In this document: positions 37,976-50,537 of the stretch, piece by piece
Numbering within the stretch: position 1 is the stretch's first letter
Layout of the letters: each line of letters opens with the position of its first letter
Virus record (IMG/VR): IMGVR_UViG_3300045049_000286
Span: 43,981-107,980 of that record
DNA: 64,000 nucleotides
Source: a virus
Strand: one strand, 5' to 3'
Position numbers and translations under genes: made by a program
Notes under the pieces: model-generated
Told to the model about the DNA's origin: nothing
Seen by the model: only the letters and a program-made list of their open reading frames with translations
The model's database searches: none

Positions 37976-39700
37976 ATGTCGATCGCCTTTGTCTCGCCGA
38001 GCATGAGGGCCGCCGCAAGCGACCTCACCGTCTCCGTCAGCCCCCTCGGGCTGGTGGAACTCGCAGACGAGGAGTTCGAGTTAGGTAGGTACACGGACCA
38101 CGCCTGACCCGCTACGCTAACCACTGGGCGTTCTACCTCGGCTACCACTGGGCCTACAAGCGTGAGGCCGGCGAGCCGAACATCACCGTGAACTACACCG
38201 GCGCCCTGTCCCGGTACATAACGAACTTCACCTTCGGACGCGGCGTCAACTTCATGTCCGACAAGAAGTTCGAGCACATCATCCCTGCCCTCCTCGACCG
38301 CGCCTGGACCGTCGACAACGACAAGAAGTCCACGCTGTGGCAGATGGGCGAGAACGGCTCCGTCGCGGGCGACTGCTTCGTCAAGATTGCCTACGAAGCC
38401 CCCTGGCAAGACCCGGCAGGAGGTGATCACCCCGGACGAGTGAGGATTCTGCCGCTGAACGCGGCGCAGTGCTTCCCTGAGTACCACCCCCACGACCGGG
38501 ACCGATTACCGCCTCCTCCGGTTCAAGCTCAAGTACAAGTTCTGGGGGACGAGCCTCGAAGGCACCCGCCAGGTGTACACCTACACCGAGATCATCACCG
38601 ACGAGTACATCGAGGAGTACGTCAACGACGAACTGCTCGACGCCCGTGACAACCCCCTCGGCGCCATCCCGATCGTACACATCCGCAACATCTCCATCTC
38701 CGGCTCGCCGTGGGGACTCGCGGACATCGTCGACCTCATCCCGCTGAACCGAGAGTTCAACGAAAAGGCGACCGAGATATCGGACATCGTCAACTACCAT
38801 GCCGCCCCGCTGACCATCGTCACCGGCGCCAAAGTTTCACAGCTTGAGCGCGGCGCCAAGAAGGTCATCGGGGGCCTCCCGAAAGACGCCAACGTCTTCA
38901 ACCTGGAGAACGGCGTCGACCTCAACGGGCCTCTCGCCTACCTCGACCTCATCAAGAGGGCGATGCACGAGCTGACCGGCGTCCCCGAGACCGCACTCGG
39001 CATGGCACAGCCGATCTCCAACACCTCCGGGGTGGCTCTCCAAATCCAGTTCCTGCCGCTCATGAACCGGTACGAACTCAAGAAGGTCAACTACACCCTC
39101 GGCCTCAAGCGCATCAACGAACTGATCCTGCGCACGCTCTTCCTCTACGAGCCGAACACCCTGCGCTACGACCCCGACTCCCAGGGCATGAAGACGCAGG
39201 ACGACCAGCCCGACGTCCTCGACCCAGCCGACCCGGCCGTCTACAACGTCGACATCGACTGGCCGCCACCGCTGCCCATCGACCAGCTCGTCAAGCTCAA
39301 CGAGATCCAGGCCAAGCTCGCCCTCGGCCTGGAATCCAAGCGCGGCGCGCTCCGCGAACTCGGCGTCGAGTTCGTCGACGAGAAGATGTCCGAGATCTTC
39401 GACGAGCAACTGCGCGAGGCGAAGGAGGAAGGCGCGCTCGAACTTATTCGGGCGGAAATAACCTCTGCCATCCTCCAGGCCACCGGGGTTACTCCTGACG
39501 GAGAAACTCCGACACCTGCTGCGAGCGCCACCGGCGCCTCTTCTGGAGGCAGTGCCGGCACGGAAGGCGCAGGACCCCTTCCCGGTCTCCCCGGAGTCGG
39601 GGGGACAACGGACACACAGTCGATGCTGAACGAACTCACGACCCTGTCCAAGGGCACCAAACTCGCCCAGTACAGGAATCCGGACAAAAACTCGGACTGA
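37976..39700 (+). CDS. Portal protein, read through two apparent frameshifts
   Basis: ATG 37976 after GGGAGGTGATGCC. The first 43 codons stop at 38105. The protein continues in the -1 frame from LTRYANHWAFYLGYHWAYKR until about 38500, then returns to the first frame at YRLLRFKLKYKFWGTSLEG and runs to 39700. The joined product, about 574 aa, matches actinophage SPP1-gp6-like portals (FTFGRGVNFMSDKKFEH; AMHELTGVPETALGMAQP). Each shift is one base: a missing C at about 38104 and an extra base at about 38480-38505. The C-terminus has a Gly/Ser/Pro-rich tail. Confidence 0.82.
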
Positions 39701-40583: not shown

Positions 40584-42013
40584 ATGGCATCCGGAATCAC
40601 GGGGACTCCGCTTCTGTCCCCGACCCCGACGGCGTACACCGCGTCGTCCTCGTCGATGCTCACGCCGGCGATCCAGACCATCTGGTCCAAGGAGATCCTC
40701 AAGGGTTAAGGGGACCTCGTGCGGTGACGTACGAGTAAACACCACGCTGTATCGGTGAACCCCTCCAAGAGCACGTCAGGGGAATACCGAGGGAACCCTC
40801 ACCGGGGACTCCGTAGAGACTACACGCGAGGCATCTCCAACGAGGCCGGCCGAACGGTGACGTAGGTCGGGGACTCACACGGACTGGGAGATGAAGATAT
40901 AGTCCGGTCTGCACTCGATGGCAAAGGTGCAGAGCCAGGCAGAAATGACCTGGCCCCAACTGATCGGCTTGGGTAACAAACCGCTTCCAGGCAATGCCGA
41001 TCCTGCGGTTCGAGCAGTTCATGGTCAAGAAGACCGAACTCGGAACCGCGCCCGGCCTGTCCGTGAACTTCATGAGGTATCGGGCGCTCGATGGGGCTCA
41101 GCAGCTCGTCGAGGGCGTCCGCATGGAGACCCACGCGCTGACGGCCGAGCAGATCACCATCACGGTCGCCGAGCAGGGCTTCGCGGTCGCCGTGACGGAG
41201 CTTCTCCTCAACTCCAGCTTCGACGACGTGATGGCGAGCGCAGCCCGCCTCCTGGGCCGCAACATGGCCACCTACCTCGACGGGCAGTGCCGCGACACCC
41301 TCCTGGGTGCCCCGTCGGTGCTCTACGGCTACGACAAGCTCGCGTCGTGGGCGGCCGGCGAGACCCGCACTCCTCTGTCCCCGTACGACCGTGGCATGTT
41401 CGCCGACTCCGAGGCGACCATGACCACGAACGGCGGCTTCTACTTCACGGCGGCGCTCGTCAAGGACGCCGTAGAAACTTTGGCCACGAAGAATGTCCCG
41501 CGACTCGGCGAGACGTACGTGGCCTTCGTGCACCCACACCAGAGCCGCCGCCTTCGTGACGACCCGGAGTTCATCGAGGTCACCAAGTACGCGGCGCCCG
41601 GCAATTTCATGCTGGGTGAGATCGGCCGGCTCAACGACGTCGTCTTCATCGAGACGACCCAGGTGTTCCAGGGCACGTTCAACCCGCCGCCGCCCACCAC
41701 CCAGCTCGGCACGACCATTCCGGTCGGCAACAGCCAGGTGTGGCAGGGGCAGCCTGCGCGGACGGCTTCCGGTTCGATTCCGGCGATTCCTGCGGTGACG
41801 CAGGTTCCGTCGAACCCGAACGCCCCGACCAACTCCATCTACCGCGCTCTCGTCATCGGCGACAACGCGGCCGGCCACGCGATTTCGCTGCCGGTGGAGC
41901 TGCGCGATGGCGGCGTGCTCGACTTCGGCCGTGAGCACGCGCTGGCGTGGTACTCGATCTGGGGCCTCGGCCTCATCACGGACTACGCCGTCGTGCAGTG
42001 CGCGACGAACTGA
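40584..42013 (+). CDS. Major capsid protein, split by a group I intron, 387 aa after splicing
   Basis: Exon 1 (40584-40707) begins ATG after GAAAGGCTGCCGCAC and reads MASGITGTPLLSPTPTAYTA...SKEILKG before a TAA. Exon 2 (40974-42013) resumes as LTNRFQAMPILRFEQFMVKK. Joining after 40707 and before 40974 keeps the frame and gives a continuous HK97-type capsid protein of the N4-gp56-like kind (TELGTAPGLSVNFMRYRALD; FAVAVTELLLNSSFDDV). Total coding length is 1164 nt. Without splicing exon 2 would need ATG 40994, which would lose the N-terminal arm. A terminator follows at 42031. Confidence 0.85.
40708..40973 (+). ncRNA. Group I intron, 266 nt, no homing endonuclease
   Basis: The 5' exon ends GGGTT, which can pair with GACCT at 40713-40717 (P1 with the required U-G at the splice site). 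P7 is formed by GACTA (40818-40822, in GTAGAGACTACACG) and TAGTC (40900-40904, in AAGATATAGTCC), the classic R and S elements. A P4-P6-like stretch lies at 40773-40808. The intron ends in G (40973). There is no room for a protein gene. The boundaries restore the capsid reading frame exactly. Confidence 0.82.
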
Positions 42014-48533: not shown

Positions 48534-50537
48534 ATGACCACACCCGTCTACCCGTACAAGCGGCCCGGCGTCTACGTGTCGGAGACGCTGCTGCCGCTTC
48601 CCACGCCGGCCGTCGCCCCCGGGACAGCGGTCGCGGCATTCGTGGGCACCCACAACGCCGGCCCCACCACGCCGACGCTGATCTCGTCCTGGGCTCAGTT
48701 CCTGTCGCTGTATGGCGGGTTCGGCTCCGGCATCGACGTGCTCCCGTTCAGCGTCTACGAGTACTTCGCGAACGGCGGCAACCGGGCCTACATACTGCGG
48801 GCGGTCGCCTCGGACGCGGCGGCGGCTTCCGTCACGCTGAACAACGTCCCGATCCCGCCGGCGAGCACCCAGACGCCGACGCCTCCCGGAACGGCGCCTA
48901 CGGGCTCGGGTACCGCGCCGTCGAACCCGGTCGCCGGCGTGACGCTGACGTCCGTCACCTCGCCGGTGATCAACCCCGAGCAGACCGCGCTCGGGGTGAC
49001 GTTCCAGTCGCTGACCGGCACGGGCAACGCGATCGACGCCTACCTGGTGACCTGCACGCCCCCGGCGGGTTCGGGTCTGACGACGCAGCAGGTGTGGTTC
49101 CCGCAGCCGGGCACCCAGGGCGCCTGCAACATCGTCTTCGGCGGCCTGCAGCCCGGGACGACGTACACCATCCAGGTCGTGCCCTACAAGGGCACCAGCG
49201 CCGGGCCGGGCATCGCGAGCCCGCCGACGTTCTCCACCCTGGCTCCCTACACGGCGGTGCCCGCGCTCAAGATCACTGCGCTGGGGCTCGGGGCTTACGG
49301 CAACAACATCTACATCGACACCGCCGCGTCGTGGACGAGCGGCCGGTTCCACCTGTTCGTGAAGGTCGGCAGCGACGCTGCGGCGAGCCTGGTGGAGACC
49401 TGGCAGGACGTCTCGCTGAACCCCACCGACCCGCGCTACGTGGTGTCGATGCTGAACGCCCCGCAGGGCGGGTCTGCGTACATCCAGGTGCAGAACATGC
49501 TGCCGCCGGCGTCCCCGCAGCCCGGCACCGGGCAGACCCCGGACGGCTCCTGGTTCCCCGTGCTCGGCAACGGGTTCCGGCTCGCGAGCGGCTCCGACGG
49601 CGTGCAGGCGGTGAACCTGTCGACGTCGCTGACCAACCAGTTCGCCTCCATCGCGGACGTGCTGCTGCTGAACCTGTGCGGTCAGTTCACCGCGAACTCC
49701 GGCATCCCCGCGCAGACGGTCATCAACGCGGCCCTGTCGTGGGTGATCAACCGGGGCCGGGCGTTCATGGTGCTGGACGCGCCGCAGGTGCCGGCGCCGG
49801 CGGACTCCACCGCCGCGACGTCCGCGTACCTGTCCCTGCTGCCGTCCGCGACGCCACCCGGCTCCTACCAGCCCACGACCTCGTACGCGGCGATGTACGG
49901 GCCGTGGCTGCAGTGCTCGGACCCCGCCGGCGCCTCGGTGCAGGCCACCCGGATGCTGCCGCCGGCTGGCGCGGTGATGGGCCAGTTCGCGCAGGCCGAC
50001 GCGAAGGTGGGCCCCAACCAGGCCCCAGCCGGTGTCGGTTACCCCCTGATCGGCGTCGTCGGGGTGGAGCACCAGTTCACCAACGACCAGCTCGACAGCC
50101 TCAACATCGCCGGCATGGACGTCATCCGGCCGGTCCCGGCGTCGGGGTTCTGCATTATGGGCGTGCGCACCCTCAAGGCCGGAATGCCGGACCGGTACAT
50201 CCCGATCCGCCGCATGCTGACCTACCTGGAGGACCTGCTCACCAAGGCCACCCAGTTCGCGCTTTTCGCGCCGAACGGGCCGCAGCTTTGGCAGACCATC
50301 ACGGCGGTGTGCCAGCAGCAGCTCAACGTGGCGATGATGTCCGGACAGCTCGCCGGCAGCACGCCCGACCAGGCGTTCTTCGTGATCTGCGACGACACGA
50401 ACAACACGCCGGCCTCCGTCGCCAACGGGGAGATCCACATCAGCGTCGGCGCCGCGCTGGAGACGCCCGGCGAATTCATCGTCCTGCAGATCTCGCAGTA
50501 CCAGGGCGGCATCTCCACCACGACCACGAGCCTGTAA
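48534..50537 (+). CDS. Contractile tail sheath protein, 667 aa
   Basis: ATG three bases after the previous stop. The N-terminus (YKRPGVYVSETLLPLPTPAV) and the C-terminal domain (MLTYLEDLLTKATQFALFAP ... NGEIHISVGAALETPGEFIV) are typical of phage sheath proteins. Residues about 145-225 look like an inserted fibronectin-III-type domain (VTLTSVTSPVI ... LQPGTTYTIQVVPYKGTSAG). The sheath contracts to drive the tube through the cell envelope. This gene shows the phage is a myovirus. Confidence 0.92.
   Translation: MTTPVYPYKRPGVYVSETLLPLPTPAVAPGTAVAAFVGTHNAGPTTPTLISSWAQFLSLYGGFGSGIDVLPFSVYEYFANGGNRAYILRAVASDAAAASVTLNNVPIPPASTQTPTPPGTAPTGSGTAPSNPVAGVTLTSVTSPVINPEQTALGVTFQSLTGTGNAIDAYLVTCTPPAGSGLTTQQVWFPQPGTQGACNIVFGGLQPGTTYTIQVVPYKGTSAGPGIASPPTFSTLAPYTAVPALKITALGLGAYGNNIYIDTAASWTSGRFHLFVKVGSDAAASLVETWQDVSLNPTDPRYVVSMLNAPQGGSAYIQVQNMLPPASPQPGTGQTPDGSWFPVLGNGFRLASGSDGVQAVNLSTSLTNQFASIADVLLLNLCGQFTANSGIPAQTVINAALSWVINRGRAFMVLDAPQVPAPADSTAATSAYLSLLPSATPPGSYQPTTSYAAMYGPWLQCSDPAGASVQATRMLPPAGAVMGQFAQADAKVGPNQAPAGVGYPLIGVVGVEHQFTNDQLDSLNIAGMDVIRPVPASGFCIMGVRTLKAGMPDRYIPIRRMLTYLEDLLTKATQFALFAPNGPQLWQTITAVCQQQLNVAMMSGQLAGSTPDQAFFVICDDTNNTPASVANGEIHISVGAALETPGEFIVLQISQYQGGISTTTTSL

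Follow-up and report, generated by a model that had tools for sequence, protein, structure and literature searches.

A predicted self-splicing, endonuclease-free group I intron in the major capsid gene of a soil actinophage

The interrupted capsid gene and the boundaries of its intron

The DNA analysed here (the window, 64,000 nt) stems from a contractile-tailed soil actinophage. A protein encoded at 48555-50525 is homologous to the tail sheath of BRock (39% identity) and also has a Pfam sheath match, in agreement with the tail type proposed in an initial annotation of the sequence. The capsid reading frame opens with the ATG at 40584, runs into a TAA at 40707-40709, and is picked up again downstream of an insert, as that annotation had described. 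Its assignment of the insert to the major capsid gene is confirmed by PHROG 1357, a major head protein (E 2e-50). The features of the locus, together with those of two related genes, are collected in Table 1.

Table 1. Features of the interrupted capsid gene, its intron, and two five-intron relatives
Feature	Position	Strand	Basis
Exon 1, major capsid gene; 116 nt, ends ..GAGATCCT, phase 2	40584-40699	+	N-termini of intronless relatives align; boundary scan
Group I intron; 284 nt, starts CAAGGGTTAAGGGGACC, ends GGTAACAAACCG	40700-40983	+	RF00028; boundary scan; covariation
In-frame TAA, 7 nt inside the intron	40707-40709	+	Sequence
AAG, pairs with exon 2 CTT 40984-40986 (P10)	40708-40710	+	P1/P10 pairing analysis
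Internal guide GGGA; P1 partner is TCCT of exon 1, 40696-40699 (G.U at splice site)	40711-40714	+	P1/P10 pairing analysis
P2 hairpin, 40716-40722 with 40729-40735	40716-40735	+	Double changes in 7/7 pairs
P3 5' strand; 3' strand 40826-40831	40742-40747	+	Structure model, covariation
P4 40752-40756/40786-40790 and P5 40760-40763/40779-40782	40752-40790	+	100% paired, 20 sequences
P6 and P6a	40791-40812	+	Structure model, covariation
P7 5' strand GACTA	40818-40822	+	100% paired with 40900-40904, 20 sequences; one double change
P8, 40832-40838 with 40887-40893	40832-40893	+	Double changes in 4/7 pairs
P7 3' strand TAGTC	40900-40904	+	Covariation
P9 40909-40914/40927-40932, P9a 40935-40939/40949-40953, P9b 40955-40959/40969-40973	40909-40973	+	Structure model, covariation
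Exon 2, major capsid gene; starts CTTCCAGGCAATG, stop included	40984-42013	+	PHROG 1357; spliced ORF
Five-intron major capsid genes, two phage contigs	L096:5601-8014 and L088:1601-4178 (minus strand)		Intron removal restores capsid proteins

Upstream, the portal gene carries a frameshift at CGATTACCGC (window 38508-38510). The break is common to the relative L006, at the same spot and with the same bases, and the gene is open in L001-L004; an error, a programmed frameshift and a small insertion are candidate readings.

Intronless relatives of the capsid gene (84-91% identity) run unbroken across the site (WSKEIL-FQAMP), and the isolated Streptomyces phages BRock, Alone3, LuckySocke, GiJojo and pSt2308 display one uninterrupted capsid match each. 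A boundary scan over all pairs of ends, which demanded a final T in exon 1 and a final G in the intron and yields joins that agree with the intronless relatives, gives a score of 73 for 40699/40983 and of 54 for the runner-up; exon 1 ends in U (T40699) and the intron in G (G40983). The intron lies after codon 38, in phase 2, and the ORF obtained by removal of 40700-40983 comprises 381 aa plus stop, with EILFQAMPILR as the predicted junction tryptic peptide. The same scan places introns at the identical point, between IL and FQ, in L054, L055, L088, L093, L105, L106, L116 and L119. Moreover, a BLAST alignment with the tail intron of phage BAKA stops at 40983, opposite BAKA 28450, which has been assigned as the 3' splice site of that intron; RT-PCR shows the BAKA intron to be spliced (PMC3706429). 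This coincidence lends independent support to 40983 as the 3' end of the intron.

The initial annotation had bounded the intron at 40708-40973 (266 nt), which is off by 8 nt at the 5' end and by 10 nt at the 3' end. Removal of this segment indeed yields an open frame of 388 codons with the stop, as reproduced here, and the proposed P1 of 5 bp (GGGTT/GACCT, with a terminal U.G) can pair. However, the implied splice conflicts with every intronless relative compared, as it inserts six residues (KGLTNR) that none of them contains. Equivalent ends would put the introns that L054 and L088 carry at this site out of frame, and P10 would shrink to 1 bp. The supposed terminal G at 40973 belongs to hairpin P9b as its final base, and the homologous BAKA intron stops at the equivalent of 40983. 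A group I intron with these ends, and hence a capsid protein containing KGLTNR, appears very improbable, and the coordinates were rejected on comparison with the relatives. Since they rest on wrong splice sites, the KGLTNR peptide is not expected even if splicing works. The central proposal, an endonuclease-free group I intron in the capsid gene, is strongly supported, in contrast to its splice-site coordinates.

Group I structure and proposed splicing

A covariance-model search against group I families, suggested along with the initial annotation, matches Rfam RF00028 over the full model (cmscan; 40687-40932, 41.6 bits, E 3.1e-9), the single such match in the whole 108-kb phage record. The score is below the gathering cut-off of 50 bits, which is a curation threshold and not a biological criterion, and several homologues likewise score below it. 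An Rfam scan of the whole window at the gathering threshold gives no match, and the element shows only at an E-value threshold. The same-site homologue in L119 scores 56.7 bits.

The conserved group I core (P3, P4, P6, P7, P8) is present, the invariant residues of the family are kept in the catalytic core, and the P7 halves GACTA and TAGTC recognized earlier are located within it. P3 contains an A.A mismatch, at a position that is unpaired in 14 of 20 relatives too. Subgroup IA, typical of T4, SPO1 and Twort, is characterized by extra helices P7.1 and P7.2 between P7 and P3. Only 3 nt (40823-40825) separate the 5' strand of P7 from the 3' strand of P3 here, and these helices are therefore absent.

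Across 20 aligned introns, 94.8% of cells are paired, compared with 81.3% in shuffles, and 132 cells display double changes, compared with 42, with 27 pairs carrying double changes. None of 500 shuffles is as high on any covariation measure, figures which are not to be taken as probabilities because the aligned introns are related. In a control that preserves this relatedness, pairing falls to 31-46% when partners are slid by 1-3 columns. Single-sequence MFE folding did not return the native fold and gave only a modest advantage over shuffles (z -1.9), which makes it uninformative. P1 is short at 4 bp (UCCU/GGGA) and P10 comprises 3 bp (CUU/AAG); their combined score is 7 with the exons that flank the intron and does not exceed 3 when exons of other sites are substituted. 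For many single introns, pairing with their own exons shows no clear gain over swapped exons.

The RF00028 E-value, the copies at the same codon in several phages and the covariation put the element far beyond chance, and these comparisons establish its anatomy, its homology, its exact boundaries and selection on its structure. The 284 nt contain no endonuclease ORF, the longest open stretch being 94 codons in antisense. We hold with high confidence that the actinophage capsid gene carries, in phase 2, an endonuclease-free group I intron that should be self-splicing, the predicted removal of which restores the 381-aa protein.

Two explanations would dispense with splicing. A dead intron remnant would leave either a broken gene or only an N-terminally short capsid protein of 339 aa; an ORF of that length does begin with the ATG at 40994, and the Rfam score under gathering may be taken to point the same way. 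However, the exon 1 frame is intact and matches the relatives, the invariant residues of the core are kept and its pairs covary, the splice-site rules are obeyed, and two five-intron relatives keep fully open exons, so that decay of this kind is hardly credible. Likewise, an ORF-breaking insert with a stop near its 5' side resembles segments that are bypassed in translation. Yet a covarying group I core, within 284 nt that recur at this position across independent contigs and also occur in other genes, makes translational bypassing, or an assembly artefact, exceedingly improbable as an account without an RNA intron.

The early stop recurs among self-splicing candidates of this kind: in 39 of 39 distinct capsid introns, translation in frame would first meet a stop 1-35 nt beyond the 5' splice site (median 11). 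This count overstates independence as these introns are kin, though all three phases and two lineages are covered. In the remaining two frames, 60% have a stop within 36 nt. We read this as a leader length that tracks codon phase across sites, keeping a conserved TGA or TAA in frame. The early stop is likely to keep ribosomes off the intron core.

Guanosine-initiated self-splicing of the ordinary type is the best-supported mechanism for the window intron. Ribosomes translating exon 1 would halt at the TAA, 7 nt beyond the 5' splice site and ahead of the core; exon UCCU would pair with guide GGGA to form P1, and the P3-P9 core would fold. A guanosine cofactor would then cleave after U40699, and the freed exon 1, aligned by P10 (CUU with AAG), would attack after G40983, resulting in a ligated mRNA for the intact 381-aa capsid protein. 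We infer both this catalysis and a reliance of capsid synthesis on it.

Distribution of related introns and possible spread

Within the same capsid family, introns occur at no fewer than 13 sites (codons ~35, 39, 48, 53, 71, 101, 131, 140, 239, 246, 259, 355, 361). The capsid genes of L096 (introns of 290, 276, 266, 286 and 300 nt) and L088 (284, 298, 287, 266 and 300 nt) harbour five introns each, the removal of which yields uninterrupted capsid proteins of 332 aa and 381 aa, respectively; independent Rfam matches cover 5/5 introns in L096 and 4/5 in L088. Four capsid introns are present in L093, and three each in L087 and L224. The first capsid-gene search, made with no selection for introns, found intron-bearing loci in 5 of 80 cases. 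The codon-48 intron is also present in cultured Streptomyces sp. CBMA29 (L134) and S. diastatochromogenes ATCC 21481 (L144). An insertion in L142 was discarded as an intron candidate, since its junction scores poorly and conserved ends are absent.

The intron tree displays two lineages, both represented in this capsid gene, with grouping mostly by site. A search for the second lineage in isolated phages gave no match, and neither did a search of a plasmid collection. In L218, a second-lineage intron resides in a tail tube gene (phrog_4542). Two capsid introns flank a 42-nt exon in both L106 and L116, with identical 3' ends and diverged 5' parts; in the L106 pair the identical 3' end extends over ~80 nt, and the upstream sequences are only partly alike. 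These pairs look like the result of conversion between copies.

IMG/VR was scanned twice for core patterns taken from the window intron, with hits in 49 contigs, of which at least 22 belong to the capsid family of the window (tblastn). Outside this family, 18 of 19 fragments tested match major head proteins (PHROGs 10, 2263, 752, 29, 267, 1328, 1357) and one matches a major tail protein, where it should be kept in mind that the patterns derive from a capsid intron and that some contigs are near-duplicates. A looser P7 pattern, classified likewise, served as control and is not a calibrated census (an earlier generic pattern gave 3 contigs). Among the matches listed for it, major head PHROGs are the most frequent, followed by major tail (at least 5); phrog_1328 accounts for at least 6, 1357 for at least 5, 267 for at least 4 and 9953 for at least 3 of 59, in lists that may overlap. 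DNA polymerase, RNA polymerase, terminase and reductase genes are among the listed control matches as well. Taken together, the head-gene matches and the control indicate that introns in capsid genes are common among metagenomic phages and that the lineage of the window intron is nearly confined to capsid genes. The earlier view of a capsid intron as unusual is thereby weakened, as capsid genes are among the commonest homes in the IMG/VR matches listed and introns of LittleE and BAKA are known to be spliced (PMC3706429).

The introns of the capsid set are all too short for a usual endonuclease gene. HNH_3 is the only homing-type nuclease domain in the phage among four families tried; searches of the phage record for HNH (PF01844), GIY-YIG and LAGLIDADG domains found none. 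The HNH_3 gene is free-standing and located outside the window (G000:C1:29826-29960, L209), ~55 kb from the intron, and nothing links its protein to the intron site. Elsewhere, a contig with a related intron (L091/L211) contains an ORF in L091 that by eye resembles a Vsr-type nuclease, and in L104 a LAGLIDADG-like ORF (by eye) lies just upstream of a phrog_267 capsid gene with a related intron.

Reverse splicing into abundant capsid mRNA is a possible route of spread. As a broader and rather doubtful conjecture, a small endonuclease-free lineage may have specialised on phage major capsid genes, reaching more than 12 sites in one family, as well as capsid genes in several further families, with no need for site-specific homing. 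This might proceed by reverse splicing into late capsid mRNA, which is very abundant, and subsequent copying back to DNA, and be tolerated by virtue of the stop just inside the 5' splice site.

Comparison with known systems

A capsid intron as such is not new: published, spliced introns are those of the mycobacteriophages LittleE (capsid) and BAKA (tail), which are the closest described cases. The minor-tail intron of the cluster J mycobacteriophages BAKA and Optimus (265 nt) is endonuclease-free and spliced according to RT-PCR (PMC3706429). Like the window intron, it interrupts an actinophage gene for a virion structural protein, and the BAKA copy shows ~71% identity across the 246 nt that lead to the 3' splice site; it differs in its host, a minor tail gene, and in its guide sequence. 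The LittleE intron shares the major capsid gene as host, and 67 nt of the core are 89.6% identical. Unlike the window intron, it measures ~819 bp, contains an endonuclease gene, and occupies another capsid gene and insertion site; its splicing is documented by RT-PCR and N-terminal sequencing (PMC3706429).

The surprise is the surroundings and not the single intron: at least 13 sites, five-intron genes and a capsid-centred lineage. Searches of the open-access literature turned up neither a phage gene with five introns nor a capsid-centred intron lineage. Five introns amount to ~1.4 kb of intron per ~1 kb of coding sequence, in the gene for the most abundant virion protein. Endonuclease-free spread, and what splicing costs a gene of such high output, thus become testable in accessible actinobacterial prophages.

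Mirusvirus introns are concentrated in virion-morphogenesis genes as well (PMC12768974), which is an analogy only, as these introns of eukaryotic viruses are spliceosomal. The group I introns of Herelleviridae (Twort, SPO1, Bastillevirinae) are phage introns that may likewise occur several per gene (at most two or three in the survey cited). Unlike the lineage described here, they are reported mainly from DNA-metabolism genes and average 802 nt (PMC11878797). The same 2025 survey, whose introns were located solely in genes of DNA metabolism, asks what confines phage group I introns to such genes (PMC11878797). This premise fails in metagenomic phages, where capsid genes are a main home of such introns.
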